DNA from: Planctomycetota bacterium
Lineage (GTDB): Bacteria > Planctomycetota > Phycisphaerae > Phycisphaerales > Phycisphaeraceae
NCBI GenBank assembly: GCA_016350165.1
Contig: CP066225.1
Span: forward strand, 1,860,001 to 1,924,000
Reading direction: 5' to 3'
Length of the DNA: 64,000 bases
Part shown: positions 15,523 to 31,310 of the stretch, piece after piece
Numbering within the stretch: the first letter of the stretch is position 1
How the letters are laid out: every line of letters begins with the position of its first letter
Notes under the pieces: model-generated
What the model saw: the letters and a program-made list of their open reading frames with translations, nothing else
Told to the model about the DNA's origin: nothing
The model's database searches: none
Translations under genes and position numbers: made by a program

Positions 15523-16785
15523 TTAAGGATTGGCAGAGATGCGTACAAATGAGATAGTACCGGGGCCGTATTTACCTTCGTCGCCGGTGATGGCTATTAA
15601 TGAATGGTCATTGATACGGTGAAGCGTTAAGCCTTCGGGACGATCGCCTACTTCAGCTTTTGCAATGAATACAGGAGCTAAAGGGTTTGTGATGTCATAA
15701 ACGACCAGACAATCGCCACGTTCAGCAGCGACGACGGCGATCATGCGTGAACCGAGGCGAGCGAGTTTAACTGCTTCGGGTTCGCGTCTCTTGGTTGGCT
15801 TTTTTGCTGAGATATCAGGGCGAATATCAATGCGTTTGAGAAATACAGGATCGTGATTGAGATTATTGGGATCAACCCAGATGAGTTGGCATGATTGCCC
15901 GCCGAGGTTACCGAGCTTATCAAAGTTGCCTTCTTCTGCGATTGCAATCAGGCAACCAATCCGATTGGGGTTATTGGGATGAAGCACGTTGTCGATAATG
16001 TCGAGACCATCAGGGCCGCTGTTGATGGAGAGGGCTGAGGCAATTGCTATTTGTGGTTTGCCTTGAAGATTGACTAATACAACAGCGTCGTTCTCCTGAC
16101 ATGTCACTGCAGCAAAGCGAGATTGGGGATCGATCGCGACAAATTCAGGCTCGATGATCCCGAGTGGACGACCAAGGTGTTTGTCTAAATCTGCTAGTGT
16201 TAACAGTGGCAAATCTGGATCTGCTGCGGTTCGATTTAAATCGAAGCTTGTCAGGTCTATTAACTGGATAGAAGCTTCTGTTTCGGGATGGCCCTCCGCT
16301 TCACAGGCGATGATTGCGTATTTGCCGTCTGGTGAAATTGCGATTGAGTCAGGATGTTGGCCGACGGTTTGATTGAGAAGCCATTTACCTCTGGATGAAG
16401 CGCGGAGATCGAACGCGATGACTCTACCAGGCTCGCCGATTTGCCTGCTTAATACTGCAACAAATGCGACGGGTAATTGTGGATGAATTGCAACACTGGT
16501 TGGTTCATAGACGGTGAATGGACCTTGGTTGCCGGGCAATTCATCGTCATAATCAAATTCAATGAGCTTTGGATTGGCAGGGTCATCGAGTTGATAAAGA
16601 TCGAGAGTTTTCCAATGAGGATTAGTAACCGCGAGAAGGTTTTCTGATTTGCAGTACTGAACAATCTCAGCTGTGAATGCGGAGACATTGATAGTCTTGA
16701 TCGATTCAACAGTTATCGCTGATTGAGCAGCAAGTGTTGATGCGATAAAAATCAGAGGCGCGATGAATGGTAATACTTTTTTCAT
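15523..16785 (-). CDS. Secreted beta-propeller protein (choice-of-anchor-I-like)
   Basis: 420-residue exported protein. Signal peptide residues 1-22 (MKKVLPFIAPLIFIASTLAA). The mature chain repeats propeller blades: VAIHPQLPVAFVAV, SIAISPDGKYAIIACE, FVAIDPQSRFAAVTCQ, with VLVNLQGK and VVYDITNPLAPVFI between them. Such 'SPDGKY' blades occur in seven-bladed propellers of the LVIVD / choice-of-anchor I group. Ligand and activity are not readable from sequence; phytase-like or scaffold roles are both possible. No PEP-CTERM tail, so it is periplasmic or released. It is followed on the same strand by the pseudopilin-like gene 40 bases upstream, so the two may share a transcript. Confidence 0.68.
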   Translation of the reverse strand: MKKVLPFIAPLIFIASTLAAQSAITVESIKTINVSAFTAEIVQYCKSENLLAVTNPHWKTLDLYQLDDPANPKLIEFDYDDELPGNQGPFTVYEPTSVAIHPQLPVAFVAVLSRQIGEPGRVIAFDLRASSRGKWLLNQTVGQHPDSIAISPDGKYAIIACEAEGHPETEASIQLIDLTSFDLNRTAADPDLPLLTLADLDKHLGRPLGIIEPEFVAIDPQSRFAAVTCQENDAVVLVNLQGKPQIAIASALSINSGPDGLDIIDNVLHPNNPNRIGCLIAIAEEGNFDKLGNLGGQSCQLIWVDPNNLNHDPVFLKRIDIRPDISAKKPTKRREPEAVKLARLGSRMIAVVAAERGDCLVVYDITNPLAPVFIAKAEVGDRPEGLTLHRINDHSLIAITGDEGKYGPGTISFVRISANP

Positions 16786-16824
16786 AGCGAATTTATCTTC
16801 GTATTTGTATTGCCTAACCGAGAG

Positions 16825-17664
16825 TTAGTCTGTTGCTGCTGAGTATGGTTCCCAGATTACATCACGTTTATTCCAGTCGTTAAGATTTTCATCTTCACGT
16901 GTGATGACGTAATTTTGTGTAAAGTGAGCGGCGTGACCGTCGGCAAAGACGAGGTGCCCGCCGTTGTTATGACGACCCGCGAAACGTTTCCAGTCAGCAC
17001 GCCCTCGGCCTAATTCGCTTTCATCAATATCATCGAAGTATGGATTATCTGCATCAACCTCTTCCTTTGTGGTGCGTAATTCGAGCATTAAAACAGTGCT
17101 TGAAGCATTAAGGAGGTTGTCGACCATGACACGACACTCTGGGTTATGCTTGAAGGATGAGGATTGGTTACGACGATTTGGAATTGAATTATTCAGTTCT
17201 GAGTTCGCAACGTATGTAAAGTAGTAGAAGCCAGAGCCTGCATTGTATGGTGCGTTGGCTGGTGGTGTTGCTGAAGGATCGATAAAGATTGAATCATCCT
17301 CGGTCAGAATAAGATCTGAATTTGTGCCTGCTTTTGCAGAAATTTCACGGTACTTTGGCTGACCAACATAGGTTGGCACAAGGTTACCCCACCATTTATC
17401 GTGAGTAAGCCCGTTATAACCTTTTTTGACTGCACCGGGTTCCTTTTCACCTTCCCACGGAACGAGACCGCGCTCATCTTGCGTGGCCATGGTGATGCCG
17501 AGCCCCCACTGCCGCAAGTTGGACATTGATTTGAGTGCCTGTGCGGTATTACGAGCAGAACCAAGGGCTGGAAGAAGAATACCGATTAGCAATGCTATGA
17601 TTGAAATAACTACAAGCAATTCAATAAGTGTGAAGGCACGTGCGCGGGTTTGATGTGAAGACAT
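16825..17664 (-). CDS. Pseudopilin-like protein (type II N-terminal methylation domain)
   Basis: 279-residue protein. The short basic leader MSSHQTRARA is followed by [18 protein letters not shown], the prepilin-peptidase cleavage and N-methylation signal (cut before F, E at +5). The C-terminal half ends with HNNGGHLVFADGHAAHF, the 'DGH' motif of the large planctomycete DUF1559-like pseudopilin family. Such proteins are thought to be type II secretion or pilus minor pilins; the individual role is unknown. I start at ATG 17664 with GGAG upstream, because an earlier in-frame Met at 17778 would put 38 residues in front of the leader. It lies just upstream of the beta-propeller gene on the same strand. 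Confidence 0.85.
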   Translation of the reverse strand: MSSHQTRARAFTLIELLVVISIIALLIGILLPALGSARNTAQALKSMSNLRQWGLGITMATQDERGLVPWEGEKEPGAVKKGYNGLTHDKWWGNLVPTYVGQPKYREISAKAGTNSDLILTEDDSIFIDPSATPPANAPYNAGSGFYYFTYVANSELNNSIPNRRNQSSSFKHNPECRVMVDNLLNASSTVLMLELRTTKEEVDADNPYFDDIDESELGRGRADWKRFAGRHNNGGHLVFADGHAAHFTQNYVITREDENLNDWNKRDVIWEPYSAATD

Positions 17665-17844
17665 TGGTAGGCTCCATAGACAATAAAAATAAACGATCTG
17701 TAATTCAGGTGGAAACATGATGGCATTTAGATGTTTGTGCAGCGTCATGTGTAAGTTAGATTCACATGAGCGTGTCATGATTTTGATAGTGACGTGTAAG
17801 TAAGTACCCTGCGAAACTTCAGGGAGATGGATCTGTGGGCAAAT

Positions 17845-17874
17845 AAAAAAGCTGACACGTAATGTGACAGCTTT
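17845..17874 (-). terminator. Terminator after a PEP-CTERM gene
   Basis: AAAAAAGCTGACAC / GTGACAGCTTT, one mismatch, 5-nt loop. On the minus strand it reads into TTTTTTATTT. Member of a set of look-alike terminators (also 18914, 20226, 21205). Confidence 0.85.
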
Positions 17875-17897
17875 GAAGTTCGCTTTATGTGACGTTA

Positions 17898-18629
17898 TTA
17901 TTTACGACGACGTAGCAATGAGAGGCCGCCCAAGCCGAGCAGCGCGAGTGATGCTGGTTCTGGAATTGCAGTTGGGAAATTGATGACTGCGTTGTCATTG
18001 CTGACTGTGACAGAAAGATTGTCGAAGAAGAAATCGACATGATCTTCAGTATTTGATGCTGGACTATAAATCCTGATTTTAATACCAATACCTACGGTCT
18101 CTTCATTTGATAGGTCGGAGGCTAGAACGGTAACGCTATTACTGAAACTGACCCATCCATTATCAATATCATCACTACCTTCGGAGTAGATCAATCCATT
18201 TTCAATTGCTCCGGAAGCAACTGAGTCTACATATTTACCTTCAGCATCAACTTCACAAAACCAAAAGCGGAATCGATAATCATCGGTGGAAGAAAAATCA
18301 ATACCATCAACAGAAACAGAGATATTATCGTTTGCATTGAGGTTTGTTACATAAGCAACGGTAGCATTTGGCGTGCCGCCGATAGGTGACTCCTGAAGAT
18401 GCAAATATGATTCGCCTTCAGAAGCTTGAGTCACTGTAAGTGGATTAGTCCCATCGGTGCCTGTAAATTCACCTGTCTTCGCGCCAACCACCTTAATTTT
18501 ACCATAGGTATCAAAGTAGCCTGGGGCATTATTTTCCCAGCCATAAGTAGCGGTTATTGCAGCTGAAGAAGTTGCAGCAACACTCAATGTTGCAGCAACA
18601 CCTAAGAACGTTGTATTAACAAAATTCAT
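17898..18629 (-). CDS. PEP-CTERM exported protein
   Basis: 243-residue exported protein. Signal peptide MNFVNTTFLGVAATLSVAAT, then a beta-rich chain without a domain I recognise; segments such as DDYRFRFWFCEVDAEGKYV and VDFFFDNLSVTVS are typical of jelly-roll, carbohydrate-binding-like folds. Ends IPEPASLALLGLGGLSLLRR plus K. Start at ATG 18629, with AGGAGG eight bases upstream; a GTG at 18638 directly abuts the RBS and is less likely. Head of a run of three PEP-CTERM genes on the same strand (17898, 18970, 20282), each with its own leader and terminator, so they are probably independently expressed duplicates that have diverged. Confidence 0.82.
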   Translation of the reverse strand: MNFVNTTFLGVAATLSVAATSSAAITATYGWENNAPGYFDTYGKIKVVGAKTGEFTGTDGTNPLTVTQASEGESYLHLQESPIGGTPNATVAYVTNLNANDNISVSVDGIDFSSTDDYRFRFWFCEVDAEGKYVDSVASGAIENGLIYSEGSDDIDNGWVSFSNSVTVLASDLSNEETVGIGIKIRIYSPASNTEDHVDFFFDNLSVTVSNDNAVINFPTAIPEPASLALLGLGGLSLLRRRK

Positions 18630-18638
18630 TCTACTCAC

Positions 18639-18913
18639 CTCCTAGTACAGAGCTAACCAATCAGCCATTATCTGTCAGATAATAGAACACTGAACTATGA
18701 ACCAGTGTCGTAATCTATGGCATTAAACAAATCTAACGTTGCATTTCCTAAACTACATTTACGGAAACTGATTGATCACATCACCAACGTGACAATTTTC
18801 CGACAAGTAGTTTAGCCTGTTTTGCCATCGTGTCCACATTTCTATAAACGATTTGTATACAAATATTTATTTGCATTCACTATAGGTAAAATAGTTAAAG
18901 TACAGCATGCATA
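18639..18913. promoter_or_regulatory. Leader and promoter region of the 17898 PEP-CTERM gene
   Basis: Close to the gene, minus-strand complementary segments ATTATCTG-A-CAGATAAT (18670-18686) and ACACTG ... CAGTGT (18691-18712) could form two hairpins upstream of the RBS. The rest holds no gene. Role unknown. Confidence 0.4.
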
Positions 18914-18947
18914 CAAAAAAAGCTGCCACCGAAGTGACAGCTTTTAT
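18914..18947 (-). terminator. Terminator with UUCG loop after a PEP-CTERM gene
   Basis: In the minus transcript GCUGUCAC-UUCG-GUGGCAGC (one G-U pair) is followed by a U tract. C(UUCG)G is an exceptionally stable tetraloop. Confidence 0.9.
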
Positions 18948-18969
18948 AGTTCATATGTATATCGCGTAT

Positions 18970-19734
18970 TTATTTACGACGACGGAGCATTGCGAGGCCA
19001 CCTAGGCCGAGCAGTGCGAGTGAAGCTGGTTCTGGGATGGCTGCAACACGGATATTGTCGAATGCATATGCTTCTTCACCACCATTAAGTTTAGCAGTGA
19101 GAGTCAGTTTCAGCGAAGTCGCTCCTGGCGCAACCGTGACGCTCTTTGTGAAATCCTGTACTACATTCGTAAGCATAGTGTCGCCGATAAACGCCGGATC
19201 GTTCCAATCATAAGTGATTGCTTCCATTGCATATGTATGTGTAGCTTCTTCGTCGATGGTGATTGCGAAGAGCTCTTGCGCAGCACCATCATCAACACTG
19301 TAAGTCCAGTTTAGGAGGTCACTGCTAGCTTCAAAATCACCCATAGCACCCATCTCAATGGTGACATCCAAATCAGCTCCAGCCATTGCTGACACATCGA
19401 AATCAAACGTTACACTGACTTCATCTGAAATATCGTTATTGACTGTATCAACAACACCAAAAAAAGCATCAGCTTTGCTACTATCGTAGATACCAACCTT
19501 ATCACTTGCATTGTCTGCGGATTCATCCAACAAACTCCAAGGAGTGCTGGAGGTATCGTTAACATAAACACCCCAGCCATCGCCAGGACTGCTGAAAGTA
19601 TTCAAAGGGAATGATGCAGTGATAGTTGCATCATCAGAACCACCATCGAAATCCACAACTAGTTCAGCAGTGGAAACACTGGCCATGCCAAAAGCACAAG
19701 CAGCACCTAATAGCGTCGTCTTTGCGAAGTTCAT
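18970..19734 (-). CDS. PEP-CTERM exported protein
   Basis: 254-residue exported protein. Signal peptide MNFAKTTLLGAACAFGMASV, shared in style with the downstream paralogue at 17898. Mature part opens LVVDFDGGSDDATITASFPL and closes LTLTAKLNGGEEAYAFDNIRV, a jelly-roll-like ending in which the last strand before the anchor is 'FDNIRV' (compare FFDNLSV and HYDNLTI in the neighbours), so the fold family is probably common to these genes. C-terminus IPEPASLALLGLGGLAMLRR plus K. ATG 19734 has AGGAGG at ideal distance, directly behind a GCCCG / CGGGC hairpin. A strongly structured leader lies further upstream. Confidence 0.82.
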   Translation of the reverse strand: MNFAKTTLLGAACAFGMASVSTAELVVDFDGGSDDATITASFPLNTFSSPGDGWGVYVNDTSSTPWSLLDESADNASDKVGIYDSSKADAFFGVVDTVNNDISDEVSVTFDFDVSAMAGADLDVTIEMGAMGDFEASSDLLNWTYSVDDGAAQELFAITIDEEATHTYAMEAITYDWNDPAFIGDTMLTNVVQDFTKSVTVAPGATSLKLTLTAKLNGGEEAYAFDNIRVAAIPEPASLALLGLGGLAMLRRRK

Positions 19735-19750
19735 TCTGATCGCCTCCTAG

Positions 19751-19830
19751 CCCGAACGGGCTTTCGTGATTGATGTATCCGACAGGCGAGAACACATGTT
19801 CTCATGTAGGAGCCCTGTGTATGGATACAT
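19751..19830 (-). promoter_or_regulatory. Structured 5' leader upstream of a PEP-CTERM gene
   Basis: Nested complementary segments: ATGTATCC (19773-19780) with GGATACAT (19823-19830), ACAGG (19782-19786) with CCTGT (19814-19818), and GAGAAC (19788-19793) with GTTCTC (19798-19803). Three stacked stems of 8, 5 and 6 bp form one arm. A separate AGCCCG / CGGGCT hairpin (19749-19762) sits against the RBS. This could be a cis-regulatory RNA; no known riboswitch class is recognised. Confidence 0.45.
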
Positions 19831-20225
19831 GGCGTGAAGAAAGATATAGTCAAAAATAGAACTGCTCTTCATCATGTAAACGTCTGGAAAGAATCTCTCT
19901 TTTCTCTCCAAAAGATCATGTAGAAGTTACGAATGAGTCAAAACGTCTAAGTTCTAACCGAAAAAACGACGTGTCGGAAGACAGGGTTTTGCCTCACGAT
20001 GGCAAAAAATCATCATTTTCTAGTTTAAACAGAATAATACGAAGGTTCAATAAGATCCATGCAATCAGTACTGATAAAGCCACATTTTTATTTCCTCACT
20101 CATATGAGAATATATAACATACGCTTTCTACGCACGATACGCAGCCTTTTCGTAGATTATCAGGAGACATGGCTACGACTTGAAAGTGATTGAAATAACA
20201 AGAACGATGAATATGAATTTGAAGA
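19831..20225. other. Gene-free spacer
   Basis: About 395 bases with no gene. Contains TTTTGCC / GGCAAAA (19987-20007), a short hairpin with T/A flanks, possibly a transcription end or attenuator. Promoter for the 18970 gene should lie here; no clear hexamers. Confidence 0.45.
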
Positions 20226-20265
20226 ATAAAAAAAGCTGCCGCGTGAAGCGACAGCTTTTTATTTT
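20226..20265 (-). terminator. Terminator after a PEP-CTERM gene
   Basis: AAAAAAAGCTGCCGC / GCGACAGCTTTTT with a 5-nt loop. The single C-A mismatch on + becomes a G-U pair in the minus transcript. Confidence 0.9.
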
Positions 20266-20281
20266 TTTATGCGTCCTCACA

Positions 20282-20995
20282 TTATTTGCGACGACGGAGC
20301 ATTGCGAGGCCGCCGAGACCGAGCAGCGCGATGGATGCTGGCTCTGGAACAGCTGCGAGATCGTAGTCGAAGCCGATTGCCGGTGCATCGTAGTACTTGC
20401 TAGTTGCACCTGAACCTGCGATTGCGACGCCGACACCGTTCAGTGGATCTGCGATGCCATGGAAAGCGAGCTTGAGCTTGCCATCTGCTGCGGATGCTGC
20501 AAACTGTGCTGCTTCGTCTGCATTCATCTCAACGTTAAAGACCATGTCTTCACGAAGTTCTGGTGCGACAAAGGCGAACTGGCCCAGCTTCACTGAAGTT
20601 TCTTTTGCTTCGAGGGTTTCCCAGTCGAAATTGGTGTTGTGTGCGGTGAGGTCGAATTCATCGGAAACGAGATAGACTTCGACGTCGCCACTTTTTTGCC
20701 AAGGTGCGCTGTAGTCACCAGTTAAGCCAGCGACGTTGAGGCGGAAGTTGAAGCTGTCAACGACAATTGCTTTGCCAGAATCAGCACCAAAATCGAGATC
20801 CCACTCAGCTGCTGCCCATGAATCGTGTGCACCACCTTCAGCTTGGATGTTGAGGTAGTAATCTTTGTCTGATGGGCCACTGACTTTGTAGCTTTCATCT
20901 TTGACAACGTTTGTCATGTCCATTGTTGCTGCCATCGCAGGACCGGCGATCATGACAGCTGCACCGGTAGCGATTAGAAAAGCGTTGCGTCTCAC
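20282..20995 (-). CDS. PEP-CTERM exported protein
   Basis: 237-residue exported protein. The best start is GTG 20995, with AAGGAGCG just upstream and a compact signal peptide VRRNAFLIATGAAVMIAGPA. The ATG at 21070 would add 25 residues lacking export character. Mature part is beta-rich (AEWDLDFG, VDSFNFRLNVAGLTG, GDVEVYLVSDEFD) and resembles DNRLRE- or jelly-roll-type domains found in other PEP-CTERM proteins; this is only an impression. C-terminus VPEPASIALLGLGGLAMLRR plus K. Third of three same-strand PEP-CTERM genes. GATTGC / GCAATC segments in its leader (21049-21073) could form a hairpin. Confidence 0.82.
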   Translation of the reverse strand: MRRNAFLIATGAAVMIAGPAMAATMDMTNVVKDESYKVSGPSDKDYYLNIQAEGGAHDSWAAAEWDLDFGADSGKAIVVDSFNFRLNVAGLTGDYSAPWQKSGDVEVYLVSDEFDLTAHNTNFDWETLEAKETSVKLGQFAFVAPELREDMVFNVEMNADEAAQFAASAADGKLKLAFHGIADPLNGVGVAIAGSGATSKYYDAPAIGFDYDLAAVPEPASIALLGLGGLAMLRRRK

Positions 20996-21204
20996 TTTTC
21001 GCTCCTTAAAAAATAAATTGGAGTGTATGTGAAAATAGATTAATAAAGATTGCCTTACTGTTGCTAGCAATCCTTATCACCTCGGTATTATGGGGTATCA
21101 TACTATGTTATATAAGTATTGTCCTGTAGGTAGCCCAATATCATGTAGACAATTCCCCGAATACGCAAGATGTAGATGGCAAAGTGTTACAGCTCCCCTA
21201 AATT

Positions 21205-22784: not shown

Positions 22785-24674
22785 TCAAGCCGAACGACGG
22801 CTAAGCAATGCCAAACCGCTCAAACCAAGTAGGGCGAGTGATGTCGGCTCAGGGATTGATGTAAATGCAGCCTCAAGAGCAGCAAAATCTTTAGCTGAAA
22901 GAACAGCTGCGAAGCCATAATTACTTGAGAGCACATCAAGGTCGAGAAGGTTTACAGTGCCATCACCATTGAAGTCTCCGCCCTCCCAAGTTGCTGCAGA
23001 GCTATAGTTGCTAGAAAGTGCATCAAGATCCAGCAGATCAACGCTACCATTAAGGTCAGCATCACCAAAGACCGTACCCTTCAAAGCTTGAATCCAATGA
23101 GCGACATCATCAGCATCAACATCGTTGTCGCCATCAACGTCATACATCGCATCAGTTGAGTTACTGTTAACTGCACCAAAGAGTAGATCAATATCTGCAG
23201 CTTCGAGCATGCCGTTGTTATTAAAATCACCGAGCAAAGCTGCTGCGAGTTGGAAGAATTCGACCTGATCGCCCGTACCGTATAAACCAGTTGAAGCATC
23301 CGCATCAAGAGCGACAAGATCAAGTTGACCTGTTGTGAGATTCAGAGCATACCAGTCATGGTTATATGCCACGCCATCATTTGGACCATCTTTGTCGTAG
23401 AAATAAACAGTATTGGTATATGGATCGTAAGCTGAGTAGCGACCATCGGTCACAGAACTATCGTCATCAAGTGCACCAGATGTATCCAATGTCACAGGCG
23501 TTTGCCATGCACCAAAATCAATCAGGTTTTCATCGTCGTTATAACTATCGATTTCACGAACAATAACCTTTGGCTCGTGCTGCGGATCATTAAAGAAACC
23601 CGATTCCACAATCACGAGATTACCCGTCATTGGATCAACAAACACTTTGTCTGCAGTACCATCATTAGCAGTTGGATCTACCGTCGGATCATCATCCAGT
23701 GCAAATTGTGTTGGGTAGTCCGGACCACCGCCAACATTAAAGCCCTTGTACTTGTTCAATGAATTGTCAGCACCAGTCAGGTCGCCAATTTCAAAGAACG
23801 CAACATCATCGCCTTCTCCATCATCTTCAACAATCCAAAGGCCCTGCACACCATCTTTATTCACATAAGCAGCACCAACAATATCGCTGCTACCAGCAAC
23901 TTCACCAAGATCTGTGTTATATTCAAGATTCACAAGGCCGAGTTGCTTTGATTGCCACGACTCAGAAGTACCGCGGTTGTAACCACCCTCTTGGCCAGAT
24001 ACATTTGACTGTCCTGCTGTCGCGCTAACACGGTTCAATACACGGATCTGGTGATCCCCCGCAGCCGTCGTGTTATCATTTCTACCATCAATCAAGAGCA
24101 AGTTATTCTCATCAACGAACTCAAGATGCATATCTGTATAGTCACCATTTTCATCAGCAACTGCATTTGTACGTGCCACTTCGCCAATCTTGTTCACAAC
24201 ACCTGGCAAAGCTTGCGGATTAGTATGCTTGCTATCAAACAATGTGCTGCCAATACCATCAAACGCATCACTACCGTAGGTTGTGTAGTTCATGCCCCCA
24301 GCAACCCATTGGTTATATGCACTACTGAAATCAATTTTAAATAAGTCGATGTCGCCGGTAGTATCCTGATCGCCATCAATCTCAACTTCAACACCACCAG
24401 CTGTTCCAGAATCAAACGCAGCAATGTAAACATTACCTGTCGCCTTGTCGATCGTCATCGCATCTGGATCTTCCAAACCGCCGTTTTCAAAACCCAAAGT
24501 CACAGCAAACATAGGTGCTGTCATGTTTGTGGTGTCGTAGAAAACAACTGAGCTTGGAGCATCTGTGTGGTTCTTATTCACATCCAACACAGCCATAAAG
24601 CCGCCTGTAGGATTCGCCATCACTGGCGTTGCCATCACTGCCGTCAGCAACGTGCCTGCTGTAAGCTTTCTCAT
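22785..24674 (-). CDS. Dockerin-like, PEP-CTERM beta-propeller protein
   Basis: 629-residue exported protein. Start at Met 24674 rather than 24680, because AAGGA then sits six bases upstream. Signal peptide MRKLTAGTLLTAVMATPVMA. Residues about 25-490 are propeller-like: DPDAMTIDKATGNVYIAAFD, LWIVEDDGEGDD, KVFVDPMTGNLVIVES, YDPYTNTVYFYDKDG. Then come EF-hand/dockerin-type calcium loops: GDFNNNGMLEAADIDLL, DVDGDNDVDADDVAHW, GDADLNGSVDLLDLDAL and GDFNGDGTVNLLDLDVL. C-terminus IPEPTSLALLGLSGLALLSR. The last loops and anchor are shared almost word for word with the PstS-like protein at 26481, implying module exchange within the locus. Activity unknown; phosphatase-like or binding roles are open. 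Confidence 0.8.
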   Translation of the reverse strand: MRKLTAGTLLTAVMATPVMANPTGGFMAVLDVNKNHTDAPSSVVFYDTTNMTAPMFAVTLGFENGGLEDPDAMTIDKATGNVYIAAFDSGTAGGVEVEIDGDQDTTGDIDLFKIDFSSAYNQWVAGGMNYTTYGSDAFDGIGSTLFDSKHTNPQALPGVVNKIGEVARTNAVADENGDYTDMHLEFVDENNLLLIDGRNDNTTAAGDHQIRVLNRVSATAGQSNVSGQEGGYNRGTSESWQSKQLGLVNLEYNTDLGEVAGSSDIVGAAYVNKDGVQGLWIVEDDGEGDDVAFFEIGDLTGADNSLNKYKGFNVGGGPDYPTQFALDDDPTVDPTANDGTADKVFVDPMTGNLVIVESGFFNDPQHEPKVIVREIDSYNDDENLIDFGAWQTPVTLDTSGALDDDSSVTDGRYSAYDPYTNTVYFYDKDGPNDGVAYNHDWYALNLTTGQLDLVALDADASTGLYGTGDQVEFFQLAAALLGDFNNNGMLEAADIDLLFGAVNSNSTDAMYDVDGDNDVDADDVAHWIQALKGTVFGDADLNGSVDLLDLDALSSNYSSAATWEGGDFNGDGTVNLLDLDVLSSNYGFAAVLSAKDFAALEAAFTSIPEPTSLALLGLSGLALLSRRSA

Positions 24675-24719
24675 TTCCATTCCTTTTCAATATGTTTGTT
24701 CTAATCTTCGATTAGTTGA

Positions 24720-25700
24720 TTAATCAATTGTTGTATTCGAAGGAAAGTCTTTATCGTTGGTAAAGACTGCGTTTTTAACAATACTGTTCGTTGGAAAGTA
24801 TTTATTCAGATCAATGGCAACCTCTGCCGTCATCGACTCTGCATGCCCATCGTAAAATGAAGCATTCATCGTATTGCCGCCATGACGGAATGCGTGCTTA
24901 ATCGCGACATCCGTCAGAGAACCATCCGCATTAAACTGGAACGGATCGCCGCTTGAAGTAATCGCAGGCCCATAGATCATGAAATTGCCACCCTCGCGCT
25001 GCTTAATGAAGTAGTTGAATGTTCTCGCATCCATACCATTCACATAGCGAACACCATCCATCGCATAGACCTTCGATGAGTTTGAACCAACAAGGCTTAC
25101 ACGAGGCCCATAATTTCGAGGCAGTTCAATCGCATTCCTGACCAACTGTGTACCACTCATACCTATGTTCACGTTCTGAATTTCATCCTGAACAAAGTGA
25201 AATGCAGATGCAGCTGCATAACTGCCATAGCGAACATCTTCGATCAACATCCCACTAGGTAAACTGCCACCACCAAACACGCCGGTGTAGCTCTGATCAT
25301 TCTCAGGACAGGTCACATCTTGATTAAAAATTTGCCACATACGCTCATCGCGATCATCCGGCAAACCAAGCTCCATTCCCATCGTGGGTGAAACCCAGTC
25401 GAGATTTTGTACAGGCTCAGTCGCACGATCTTGAAAAGTATGTGCATTGTCATTCAATTCCCAACCTGATGTATTAGGCCCCGCTAGCCATTCATCATTA
25501 TTAGTCGTATAAATCGCCATACCTTGAGCATAACTTCTCAAATTCGCCAAACACATCGCACCTCTAGCCGTTCTTCTTGCCGCGCCAAGGGCTGGCAGTA
25601 AAATTCCGATTAGCAATGCAATGATCGATATGACTACTAGCAATTCAATTAATGTAAACCCTTTTAACCCATACCACCGCTGATCATGTTGTTTATTCAT
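24720..25700 (-). CDS. Pseudopilin-like protein
   Basis: 326-residue protein with leader MNKQHDQRWYGLKG, then [18 protein letters not shown], cut by prepilin peptidase before F with Glu at +5. Next helix ends [20 protein letters not shown], the family hallmark. C-terminal AFRHGGNTMNASFYDGHAES carries the H-x-GG ... DGH motif of the DUF1559-like group. RBS GGTGAG precedes ATG 25700. It stands between the propeller gene (stop 45 bases from this gene's end) and a small PEP-CTERM gene, same strand. The specific role is unknown; location suggests part of the same surface or secretion locus. Confidence 0.87.
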   Translation of the reverse strand: MNKQHDQRWYGLKGFTLIELLVVISIIALLIGILLPALGAARRTARGAMCLANLRSYAQGMAIYTTNNDEWLAGPNTSGWELNDNAHTFQDRATEPVQNLDWVSPTMGMELGLPDDRDERMWQIFNQDVTCPENDQSYTGVFGGGSLPSGMLIEDVRYGSYAAASAFHFVQDEIQNVNIGMSGTQLVRNAIELPRNYGPRVSLVGSNSSKVYAMDGVRYVNGMDARTFNYFIKQREGGNFMIYGPAITSSGDPFQFNADGSLTDVAIKHAFRHGGNTMNASFYDGHAESMTAEVAIDLNKYFPTNSIVKNAVFTNDKDFPSNTTID

Positions 25701-26480: not shown

Positions 26481-29096
26481 TTAGTTCTTACGTTTACGCC
26501 CCAGCAGCATCATGCCGCCCATACCAAGTAGTACCAATGATGCAGGCTCAGGAACTGCTGCCACAAATGAGTGCAAAGCCATCACATCTTCGTCAGTCAG
26601 TACACCATTAAAGCCATAGCTATTCGACAGAATGTCAAGGTCAAGCAAGTTAACATCGCCATCACCATTAAAGTCACCTGATGCCCATGTACCTGTAGCA
26701 CCATATCCAGTTGAAAGTGCATCAAGGTCAAGCAGATTCACCGAACCATCAAGATTCGCATCACCGTAAACTGTGCCGAGAATATCAAACACAAGCTCAT
26801 CAACATCTGCTTTGTTAACATTCATATCACCGTTAATGTCAGCTGAAAGATCTGAGAACACAGCTTCGTTGAGGTTTGACCACTCAACACCACCTGTACT
26901 GTCTTCATCCAAGCCGACAAACTGTGAGAACACATAGTCGATATCTAATGCATCAATAACACCGTCTGCACCATTCGCTGCTGCGCCCTTCGTAACTGCA
27001 CTACCAGCAACATCACCACGAGAGTCGCCATTCATATAGGTCACGCCAGTTGCAATTGTGGTACCGAACAGGTTGCCACCAAAAGCATTATCACCGTCAA
27101 TAAAATTTTGTTTACGATCAAGCATGTTGCCCGCACGACCTGCTGCAAACAAACCATCCAATCCGTATCGCACATCATCAGCATCAAAGTTACCATCGCC
27201 GGTAAAATCACCAAGCAATTCCAAAACAGCGTTAGCATCTGTACCAGCAAGAGCTGCACGGTTGTTAACGTTCTGATATACATTGATCATCGCAGCAATA
27301 TCTGCAGTATTTCGTGCACCATCACCATCAAAATCACCTGCAATTGCATTACGTTCATGAATCGCATTGCCGGTAACCATCTTCTCGTTATACGCAATTG
27401 CCGTGCCATCGTTAGTTATGTAGTTCGTACCACCAGCAACACCGTCAGAGTAAGCAACACCACTCAAACGTTCAGAAACCCAACCAAAACCAACGTCACC
27501 ATATTGATCTGGCAAAGTTGATTCCGTTGGCAGGAACGATGCATTGCGAAGATTGGCATTCACATCTGCAGGATTCTGCAACTCGAAATTGCCCGGATCA
27601 GTAACCGTTGGCAAAGCTTCCATCGCAGCAAGCAATGCATATTGCGTCGCAAGATACTGACCAGGTGTACCCTCATTCGCTGCATCACCAGGAGCAGCTG
27701 AAAACGCTGCAATTGATTCAAGAATATTTCGCAGATAAGCCGCTGCTTGCACATTCGCCATCGCTGGATCGCCGCTCATTGAAGGATTCGCAGCATTAAT
27801 ATTGTTCGCATATGGGTTGCCGATCGTCGCAAACGTCTCAGCACCACCAATCTGCCAACCAGTATCTGCATCACCATTCCAAATCACGTTATTAAACGCA
27901 GCACCCTGACCATTATTCGACATGATTGGTCGCACATACTGCGTACCACCATCAGTGTCGTTCATGATGTTCAGAATTTCATACTGGTTATCAGCTGATT
28001 CACGAGCAGCCTTTGAGTTACCAGCCAAACCTGTATAACCAACAGCCAAACGATGGTTTCTCACCGTCTGCTCCATACGACTTGACGAATTTTTATTCGT
28101 TGCAACAAACTCTGCGCCTATCTTGTCATTAGACTTATTCGCATGCTTCTTGCCAACGTTATCACCCACTCCCCATGAAGGATCAACACCCAATGAGTTC
28201 ATCGCACCATTACGTGTACCAGAACCTGAGTCACGTGAAACCGCAACAAGATTCTCACCATTCTTCATGCGGCCAGTCACATACAAGTGCTGCAATTGCG
28301 TTTTCTTCACATTACCATCAGCTGAACCATCAAAGTCAGCATCAATACCAGTACCGTGATTCGCAATAAACGCGATCGGCACCCAAGCAATCGAGTTATC
28401 AAAAACAGTGTTACTATCCGGTGCATCCGTATTTGTGTTCAAACCCCCAAGCGACTTCAATAAATTCGCCTGACCACCTTCTTGATTACCTGCACCACTT
28501 CCAACAGCATTTGAAATGGCTTGATTCAAACCATAACCAGCTGTTGTCGGTGCAGCATTCCATCGAGCTTGCGATGCATTACCTTGAGTCACAAACCACT
28601 TCGTTGGCACGTCCATCACAGCAATATCAATCTGCACACCGCCACCAGCACTCAAATATGGCATCGCACCAGGATTTGCGGCGTTCCCTACACCAACAAC
28701 ACCACCGTTATAAAATTCTGAACGATTAATGCGGCCTGGGTCTGGATAAGCCAACTGACCATTACCCGCTACATTTGCAGGCACCTGACCGTAGTTAACC
28801 AAATCCTTCAAACCATTACCCGAACCAACTGCACGATACTGGACAGCCCAGAATGAGTTCGCTGCATTGTCCTTAGCAATCTGCTCAAACTGAACCTGTG
28901 TAAAGTCTGTCACGACACCATTGCCATCAACATCGATAAAATCTGATGTGCTCGCAGGTGCTAAAAAGAAAGGCTCAAACAATGTCGCACCACTAATATT
29001 GATCACATGATCCGGTGCCGCCATCGCTGGCCCTGCCAACACTGCACTCAGCAATGCCGCAGTTGAAAAACTCATGATCTTCACTTTGCTATCCAT
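26481..29096 (-). CDS. PstS-like phosphate-binding protein with dockerin repeats and PEP-CTERM
   Basis: 871-residue exported protein. Signal peptide MDSKVKIMSFSTAALLSAVL-AGPAMAA. Residues about 30-480 resemble PstS, the periplasmic phosphate binder: NISGATLFEPFF (33-44; compare the TGAGATFPAP loop), YRAVGSGNGLKDL (87-99; compare the GIGSSGG loop) and VSRDSGSGTR (286-295), the SGSGT phosphate loop, with IDIAVMDVPTKWF between. These are the three phosphate-contacting loops in the right order. Several EF-hand/dockerin-type loops follow from about residue 590 (GDFDGDGARNTADI, GDFTGDGNFDADDV, DINGDMNVNKADV, GDANLDGSVNLLDLD, GDFNGDGDVNLLDLD). C-terminus VPEPASLVLLGMGGMMLLGR. No Pst ABC genes are adjacent. 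Substrate is inferred from the loops. Confidence 0.78.
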   Translation of the reverse strand: MDSKVKIMSFSTAALLSAVLAGPAMAAPDHVINISGATLFEPFFLAPASTSDFIDVDGNGVVTDFTQVQFEQIAKDNAANSFWAVQYRAVGSGNGLKDLVNYGQVPANVAGNGQLAYPDPGRINRSEFYNGGVVGVGNAANPGAMPYLSAGGGVQIDIAVMDVPTKWFVTQGNASQARWNAAPTTAGYGLNQAISNAVGSGAGNQEGGQANLLKSLGGLNTNTDAPDSNTVFDNSIAWVPIAFIANHGTGIDADFDGSADGNVKKTQLQHLYVTGRMKNGENLVAVSRDSGSGTRNGAMNSLGVDPSWGVGDNVGKKHANKSNDKIGAEFVATNKNSSSRMEQTVRNHRLAVGYTGLAGNSKAARESADNQYEILNIMNDTDGGTQYVRPIMSNNGQGAAFNNVIWNGDADTGWQIGGAETFATIGNPYANNINAANPSMSGDPAMANVQAAAYLRNILESIAAFSAAPGDAANEGTPGQYLATQYALLAAMEALPTVTDPGNFELQNPADVNANLRNASFLPTESTLPDQYGDVGFGWVSERLSGVAYSDGVAGGTNYITNDGTAIAYNEKMVTGNAIHERNAIAGDFDGDGARNTADIAAMINVYQNVNNRAALAGTDANAVLELLGDFTGDGNFDADDVRYGLDGLFAAGRAGNMLDRKQNFIDGDNAFGGNLFGTTIATGVTYMNGDSRGDVAGSAVTKGAAANGADGVIDALDIDYVFSQFVGLDEDSTGGVEWSNLNEAVFSDLSADINGDMNVNKADVDELVFDILGTVYGDANLDGSVNLLDLDALSTGYGATGTWASGDFNGDGDVNLLDLDILSNSYGFNGVLTDEDVMALHSFVAAVPEPASLVLLGMGGMMLLGRKRKN

Positions 29097-29285: not shown

Positions 29286-30305
29286 TCATTCAAAGTCATA
29301 ACCATCCATGATGATCTTGTTTTCGCCGCTCAATGAGTAGAAGTATGCACCCCACTCTTTTTGCTCAGCTGTTTCCATCACATGCTTGGTTTCAACATGG
29401 CCGTCTGCATAACTAAAGTTCGCAACACCACCGTATGACCCATTGCCACCTTGATGATGACGGCCAATCGCATTCAAACCTGTTGAAGTCGATGTCAACA
29501 AGCCCGGGGCATCACGGTGCACTTCATCAGTTACAAACTCATCTTTAACAGGGTGACGCCAGAACTTTGATGTTGGCGTGTACTGAACTGCATTCCAGTG
29601 ATTACCTGTTGGATTAAAAAACGGATTAATCGGACGGTGTGATTTAGACAAACCGCCACCACCGCCACCACCACTCGTCGCAACCGCTGTATAGCTATCT
29701 GCATATTCACTCAAAACAATTGTGTTTGATTCGTTAATCACTTCAGATGCACGCACCAAACGATTATGGCGTGGCGTACCACCCACAAACTTATTTCGTG
29801 GAATCAATGCTTCATTCGCAGCATATGCCATCCATCTCGCTTGACGGTCAATTGCTCCCGAACCTTTACCATTACCCATGACTTGACCTTCTACTGTCGC
29901 ATCGTCATGTGGATTTGTCGCAGGATGTCCACCATTGTCCATCGTTGCACACTCAAACGCTGTTTCATTAACCGCACCACCATTAAACAGTGTGTACGAC
30001 CAGTGGACGTAACCATTTGATGGGTTCGTACCAAACTGTTCGTTCCATCGCCATGAGCCCGTCTCTTTATCACTGCCGTATACATATGATGCAGGATAAA
30101 ACCCATTATTTTCTGCGGTATACGTCACCATTGCGATTGCAACCTGACGCATATTTGATGCACATTGAATTTTTCTTGCTGCTGATCGTGCACTACCGAG
30201 TGCTGGTAAAAGAATGCCAATCAACAAAGCGATAATTGATATCACCACAAGCAACTCAATCAGGGTAAAACCCCAAATCCCAATTTGTCCATGCCTTTTA
30301 TGCAT
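29286..30305 (-). CDS. Pseudopilin-like protein with polyglycine loop
   Basis: 339-residue protein. Leader [12 protein letters not shown], then [18 protein letters not shown] with Glu at +5: prepilin peptidase substrate. [20 protein letters not shown] continues the helix. A run of seven glycines lies near residue 217, and the C-terminus has [20 protein letters not shown] followed by HVET, the family's DGH-type ending. GGAG precedes ATG 30305. It sits between the PstS-like gene and the regulator gene, all on the minus strand. As with its relatives, a minor-pilin or secretion-related role is expected but unproven. Confidence 0.86.
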
Positions 30306-30431: not shown

Positions 30432-31295
30432 CTACACCACTGCATCCTGAGTAACTCCCACTTCCCGAATCCGATACCCAACTCCCCTCACAGTCTCAAC
30501 TTGCTTCGCTGCACATGCTCCCAATTTGCGACGAAGCATATAAACATGATTCTTCACAACTGAATCCCTCGCTTCCCCCGACTCCAAATTAAGCGTCTGC
30601 CTGATCACTTCAGGCGTCAATATCCAGCCCGGGCGTTTCATCAATAGCTCCAACAACCTAAACTGCGTCAGCGTCAATACAACTCGCTTCCCACCAACCT
30701 GTACCTCAAACTTCTCAGGCCACATCGCAATCTCACCCACACGCATTGATTTACAAACTTCTTCACTCCGCCCCATATCTTTTCCACGTTTCTCCCCCGT
30801 CATTTCCCATTGCACACGCACCCCTCGAGACCGAAGTCTTGCCTGAACACGCGCCAAAAACAAACCCCGATTCGTCACACTCTCTCCATCAAAAATATCG
30901 TCCACCACATCTAACCATTGAATAGCATCACTAGGCATCATCGCTCGACAAACCACAACAACACTACAAACCCATTTATGTTCTTCACGTAACACACTCA
31001 ATCGCTTTGCTATCGCAAGCCTTTCCCCATCATTCGCATCCACAACCAGCACCACTACTGTAGGCCCAATTTGTTCACAACTCCCCAATACATCTTCCCA
31101 TCCACAATACCTAGCTCGCACTCCCAACCCGTCCAGATGATGCATTGTTAATTGCTGCAAATAACCCTCGCCCGCAATCAATACACTCATGCGAACCGAA
31201 CCAGCTTGTTCCATAATCTGCCCCTTCACCGGCAACCCATACTTATATAGATCTGCATCTATCAAATTACCGCTTTTTACGCGATTATTTCCCAT
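30432..31295 (-). CDS. PhoB/OmpR-type winged-helix regulator with degenerate receiver
   Basis: 287-residue DNA-binding protein. The C-terminal ~100 residues are an OmpR/PhoB winged helix: LTLTQFRLLELLMKRPGWIL, then SVVKNHVYMLRRKLG (recognition helix) and VETVRGVGYRI (wing hairpin). The N-terminal half looks like a receiver fold (VRMSVLIAGEGYLQQL ... VVVLVVDANDGERL), but the acidic pair that binds Mg2+ in 'LVVDDE' is replaced by IAGEG. Phosphorylation is therefore doubtful, although D in VVDAND could occupy the acceptor position. I use ATG 31295; a TTG at 31310 and later Mets are alternatives. No histidine kinase is adjacent. It lies at the upstream end of the PstS-like/pseudopilin locus in the same orientation, so it is a candidate regulator of that locus. 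Confidence 0.82.
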   Translation of the reverse strand: MGNNRVKSGNLIDADLYKYGLPVKGQIMEQAGSVRMSVLIAGEGYLQQLTMHHLDGLGVRARYCGWEDVLGSCEQIGPTVVVLVVDANDGERLAIAKRLSVLREEHKWVCSVVVVCRAMMPSDAIQWLDVVDDIFDGESVTNRGLFLARVQARLRSRGVRVQWEMTGEKRGKDMGRSEEVCKSMRVGEIAMWPEKFEVQVGGKRVVLTLTQFRLLELLMKRPGWILTPEVIRQTLNLESGEARDSVVKNHVYMLRRKLGACAAKQVETVRGVGYRIREVGVTQDAVV

Positions 31296-31310
31296 ACAGT
31301 CGAACCCCAA

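Follow-up and report, generated by a model that had tools for sequence, protein, structure and literature searches.

A PstS-superfamily protein with surface-anchor signals and a constant pseudopilin gene partner in one planctomycete order

Introduction

Can a protein that carries the phosphate-contacting loops of PstS within a much longer polypeptide, ending in an exosortase sorting signal, be a true relative of PstS, and does it work like a phosphate-binding protein? The question is raised by an ORF on the reverse strand of a 64,000-nucleotide stretch of a Planctomycetota genome (GCA_016350165.1, contig CP066225.1, positions 1,860,001 to 1,924,000; hereafter the window), which a preliminary description, made from the sequence alone, had interpreted as a PEP-CTERM protein with three PstS-type loops. 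Points of reference for such a protein are PstS itself and the DING proteins, which are described as extracellular and have a proposed role in phosphate scavenging (PMC7922408, PMC5082522). Both groups grip phosphate through eight residues, which are listed for one DING protein (T8, L9, S32, D62, R141, S145, G146 and T147), and the contact aspartate of DING proteins and PstS is credited with specificity for protonated phosphate (PMC7922408).

Results

Architecture of the protein

The ORF is intact, begins with ATG and encodes 871 amino acids (ORF list and translation); its orthologue in a genome of the same genus is 83-85% identical. The protein comprises the following parts.

26481-29096, reverse strand: predicted surface-anchored protein of the PstS superfamily, 871 aa (ORF, translation, same-genus orthologue)
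29019-29096, reverse strand: probable Sec signal peptide, residues 1-26, ending in LLSAVLAGPAMA (sequence inspection)
27357-29015, reverse strand: PstS-like (type II periplasmic-binding) region, residues ~28-580, with large insertions (hhalign against 63 PstS-family sequences)
28977-28991, reverse strand: phosphate loop 1, GATLF, residues 36-40, contacts T38 and L39 (identical in 40/40 homologues)
28812-28829, reverse strand: phosphate loop 2, VGSGNG, residues 90-95, contact S92 (40/40; aligned to PstS IGSGGG)
28605-28628, reverse strand: phosphate loop 3, DIAVMDVP, residues 157-164, contact D162, the equivalent of DING D62 (40/40)
28215-28235, reverse strand: phosphate loop 4, RDSGSGT, residues 288-294, contacts R288, S292, G293 and T294 (40/40; aligned to PstS R-x2-GSGT)
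28029-28040, reverse strand: GYTG, residues 353-356 (counterpart of the IGYVE strand of PstS in the alignment)
26787-27338, reverse strand: family-conserved block with four dockerin/EF-like calcium loops, residues ~587-770 (invariant D/G columns in the family alignment; loop list)
26622-26768, reverse strand: dockerin type I-like pair, residues 777-825 (PF00404, 21.3 bits)
26487-26558, reverse strand: PEP-CTERM exosortase sorting signal, residues 847-870 (PF07589, 22.2 bits; TIGR02595, 23.7 bits)

The N-terminal region reads VINISGATLF, and the protein contains six dockerin-type loops in total and no cysteines. Searched on its own, it matches only PEP-CTERM and, weakly, Dockerin_1; the match to the exosortase signal (E 1.5e-4) exceeds the Pfam cut-off, as expected from the preliminary description. 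The length is ~2.5 times that of PstS, which agrees with the earlier estimate of more than twice. Asn/Gly-rich insertions are present but less distinctive than had been claimed, with a moderate enrichment to ~28-31% N+G in two of the inserts.

A conserved phosphate-contact site

The three PstS-like strings occur in the order originally given (GATL at residue 36, GSGNG at 91 and RDSGSGT at 288), and a fourth loop that had been overlooked, D157-x4-D162-V-P, sits between GSGNG and RDSGSGT, with GYTG following all of them at 353. We take D157-I-A-V-M-D162-V-P to be the counterpart of the DFGASDAP loop of E. coli PstS, and this D-x4-DVP loop is predicted to supply the phosphate-discriminating aspartate, D162. 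In composition-preserving shuffles, the four motifs arose at frequencies of 8.5%, 4.2%, 3.9% and 0.19%; the joint chance is ~2.6e-7 as a product and ~1e-8 once their order is included.

The eight contacts of the DING protein map to T38, L39, S92, D162, R288, S292, G293 and T294. The residue types are identical throughout, and in both proteins SGT follows R at a spacing of four residues. Conservation of the loop residues, which had been proposed as a check on the PstS-type interpretation, proved complete at these positions: all eight contacts (T, L, S, D, R, S, G, T) are identical in 40/40 full-length homologues. Invariant columns make up 40 of the 546 columns of the PstS-like region (39 members), and the chance that eight named columns would all fall among them is 4e-10. 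Gly, Pro, Asp and Asn account for most of the remaining invariant columns. Distances between the loops are ~1.6 to 4 times the PstS values.

Homology to the PstS superfamily

Single-sequence searches of the protein against Pfam, NCBIfam, PHROGs and PDB did not find PstS. Sequence searches of PDB returned essentially dockerins only, and a HMMER profile search of PDB returned dockerins and one chance match. No member of a set of 20 matched PF12849, three of 20 homologues weakly matched the PstS model TIGR02136 (best E 0.02), and no curated PstS model scored above its cut-off on the family members searched. Two AlphaFold2 runs, on shallow alignments of 2 and 3 sequences, gave a pLDDT of ~28.

The profile search suggested in the preliminary description was carried out with hhalign, which matched a 40-member alignment of the family to 63 PstS-family sequences, including planctomycete PstS, with a probability of 96% (E 5.3e-9, score 75). 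The strong match is restricted to the second lobe, where ~140 columns are aligned in the correct register, with R-x2-GSGT on R-x2-GSGT and GYTG on IGYVE. Of the loops in the first lobe, the GSGNG piece is the only one to align; here YRAVGSGNGLKDL is paired with YQAIGSGGGIKAI in a short stretch, separate from the main match and non-significant alone. Results varied with the PstS sample: 19 regex-picked sequences gave no signal and 6 sequences an E value of 8.5e-4, while the 63 iteratively collected PstS-family sequences gave 6e-8 to 5e-9. After removal of sparse columns the real pair scored 44.5, compared with at most 23.9 for 150 dense-column shuffles, at most 18.2 for twelve unrelated families and 13.2 for the reversed profile. 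A gapped-column shuffle control (scores up to 138) was discarded as invalid, since gap columns scattered through the alignment allow gaps at almost no cost. Its place was taken by the controls with dense columns, with the reversed profile and with real families. At the level of sequence profiles, these comparisons demonstrate that the PstS-like region is homologous to the PstS superfamily (PBP_like_2). The PstS-type interpretation is supported in this sense, as a statement about superfamily, but does not extend to a subunit of the Pst transporter.

Distribution and variation of the family

Protein searches of 101 relatives and of 392 genomes from the whole phylum detected the family in 19 and 9 of them, respectively; all of these belong to two families of one order. 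A profile search of that order recovered it from 112 of 400 sampled genomes and 59 of 163 genera, with one gene per genome, a few rows of this search representing a single gene split in two. Two further copies are located on small Pirellulales/Planctomycetales MAG contigs, where binning error is possible, and no relatives of the protein were found in viral contigs. Identity between homologues within the PstS-like region is 38-86%.

For the dockerin-like loops, another element of the preliminary description, Dockerin_1 falls short of its cut-off in this protein (21.3 versus 22.9 bits), but 15 of 20 homologues match (E up to 1) and some exceed the cut-off. PEP-CTERM was detected in eight of the 20, a GC-type dockerin anchor in 8/20 and an extra N-terminal lamin-tail domain in five. 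The C-terminal anchor is interchangeable within the family, being either PEP-CTERM or a GC-type dockerin; these alternative anchors of the relatives, like the pseudopilin partner described below, had escaped the earlier description. The lamin-tail domain (~180 aa) precedes the PstS-like region in members from the second family (L046, L047, L048, L049 and L059). One MAG copy (L004:5714-7432) is without the whole second lobe, in frame, with LNTNT joined to the calcium-loop block, whether through a genuine deletion or through collapse of the assembly.

A constant pseudopilin gene and the wider neighbourhood

Directly upstream of the PstS-like gene in the window lies the following gene.

29286-30305, reverse strand: dedicated pseudopilin of the DUF1559 / H-X9-DG type, 339 aa (PF07596, E 6.6e-8)

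A same-strand prepilin-type gene occupies this position in 41/41 loci and is the only neighbour common to loci of different genera, the next most frequent families being found in three loci. The gap between the two genes is 1 to 322 nt (21 of the 41 loci); in locus L197 an over-long ORF places the called start inside the pilin gene. The pseudopilin is conserved over its full length (~310 aa), with 39-65% identity between genomes. Approximately 60 paralogues in the source genome match it mainly over the N-terminal 60-120 residues, which indicates a specific partner, as opposed to a pilin drawn at random from its family. The constancy of the pairing within one order is partly due to common descent, and the pilin gene is probably co-transcribed with the PstS-like gene.

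Other neighbours in the window encode PEP-CTERM, pilin, Band 7, HDOD and other proteins. No phosphate genes were found near the PstS-like gene and pstCAB is absent beside it; the source genome has its own pstS, with an adjoining pstC-like gene, ~1.95 Mb away. A search for an E. coli-type Pho box upstream of the gene found no consistent one across the loci, only L042 and L044 exceeding shuffles. With no consistent Pho box and no nearby phosphate genes, nothing independent ties the gene to phosphate. Three exosortase genes and several secretins are present in the source genome.

Upstream of the pilin gene, an OmpR/PhoB-type winged-helix regulator (30432-31310, reverse strand) has an N-terminal half without a recognised receiver domain; this gene is common only to the same-genus genome and was left out of the module. 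The downstream region (15523-21070, reverse strand) encodes three PEP-CTERM proteins, a choice-of-anchor protein and another prepilin (16825-17778).

Discussion

We have characterized a protein that shares with PstS (PF12849, TIGR00975, TIGR02136) all of the phosphate-contact residues, in order, and a second-lobe profile homology that includes R-x2-GSGT and the GY strand. It differs from PstS in being 2.5 times longer, in having large insertions, in scoring below every curated cut-off, in the addition of a surface anchor and calcium loops, and in a gene location away from pstCAB in a genome that keeps its own pstS. The eight contacts are likewise identical to those of the DING proteins (PfluDING/Psp, HPBP), including the T-L of the GGATL-type first loop. 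However, the DINGGG mature N-terminus and the four conserved cysteines (two disulphides) of DING proteins are lacking, and whereas DING proteins are freely secreted, this protein would be retained by its anchor signals and has a pseudopilin partner. By these defining features the protein belongs neither with the PstS subunits of Pst operons nor with the DING proteins, and it constitutes a new variant of the PstS superfamily.

The C-terminal PEP motif, transmembrane helix and basic tail, above cut-off, and the exosortases of the genome are those of PEP-CTERM/exosortase cargo (PMC1569441), but in relatives of the protein a GC-type dockerin anchor takes the place of this signal. The papers searched yielded no PstS-like cargo of this kind. 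Fusion of a phosphate-binding domain to a surface-retention module has a parallel in Pseudomonas Psp3, a PstS-family protein with an OmpA domain in place of the dockerin/PEP-CTERM anchor, for which no pilin partner is mentioned in the passage of PMC5082522 that describes it. A published description of such a family was not found in the open literature, which omits most subscription journals.

We consider it probable that the protein is a surface-anchored phosphate binder of the PstS superfamily, with a calcium-loop stalk, a PEP-CTERM anchor and a pseudopilin partner, which hands phosphate over to PstS. Following Sec export, the protein would cross the outer membrane, a step in which its own pseudopilin may take part. 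The most likely role of the pseudopilin is to help a type II-secretion/type IV-pilus-like machine export or display the protein; gene order is the evidence for this role. The heavily inserted N-terminal 'Venus flytrap' would bind one phosphate between its two lobes, as the eight conserved contacts suggest, and would be carried on the calcium-loop (dockerin-like) stalk, while exosortase processing of the PEP-CTERM tail would keep the protein at the surface of the cell or within the surrounding matrix. Captured phosphate may then be concentrated near the cell and diffuse to the ordinary periplasmic PstS, a hand-over that we infer as the most economical reading. Overall, we hold with moderate confidence that the protein functions as a phosphate binder. 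Together, the retained contact residues, the anchor signals and the constant pilin partner suggest an unrecognised route of surface phosphate capture in these bacteria.

Other explanations were considered. The large lobe insertions, the dockerin-like stalk, the variable anchors, the lamin-tail domain in five homologues and the lack of a consistent Pho box would all suit an adhesive or matrix role, for which there is a precedent in the contribution to adherence of PstS on appendages of P. aeruginosa (as cited by PMC7922408). The protein would then be a PstS-superfamily surface protein with no part in phosphate supply, whose ligand is a different oxyanion or something phosphorylated, be it a polymer, a surface or a metabolite (e.g. 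polyphosphate, phosphorylated glycans or phosphate mineral). We regard this as possible but unlikely, as the eight contacts for a buried single phosphate are invariant, among them the aspartate responsible for accepting protonated phosphate. In a distinctly speculative extension of surface phosphate capture, pilin and binding protein would be a working pair, with a pilus-like fibre that displays the phosphate-capturing flytrap and extends or retracts it; if true, such a nutrient-harvesting pilus module would be one not previously described.

An enzymatic function, phosphatase-like or otherwise, is brought to mind by the low-molecular-weight alkaline phosphatases of Pseudomonas, which have been placed in the same superfamily as DING proteins and PstS (PMC7922408), but it seems very improbable given that no added metal or catalytic motif is evident, that the invariant columns outside the contacts are mostly Gly, Pro, Asp and Asn, and that PfluDING has no detectable phosphatase activity (PMC7922408). 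Finally, the empty single-sequence searches and the failure of AlphaFold2 to produce a fold from 2- and 3-sequence alignments could reflect convergence, with glycine-rich loops having arisen in an unrelated surface fold. We give this explanation scarcely any weight because the profile-profile score far exceeds those of dense shuffles, the reversed profile and unrelated families, ~140 columns are in register, and eight of eight contacts are invariant.

The family represents a conserved, single-copy and probably surface-located protein of a single planctomycete order. Because the PstS-like region is recognised by no curated family model, annotations presumably describe the protein by its PEP-CTERM or dockerin part and nothing more. 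If phosphate is bound, the family provides a testable mechanism for its capture at the surface. One specific pseudopilin, out of ~60 unexplained paralogues, is also tied to a specific cargo, which offers a route to the function of a large pilin family. A second same-direction pair occurs in the window, where a pseudopilin gene (24720-25700) is followed by a gene for a 631-aa dockerin/PEP-CTERM protein (22785-24680, reverse strand), and is common only to the same-genus genome. In at least 6 of 30 pseudopilin loci of the source genome (L139, L142, L147, L148, L151 and L159), a same-strand PEP-CTERM gene ends ~100-170 nt upstream, and pairing of pilin and PEP-CTERM genes may be a general pattern.
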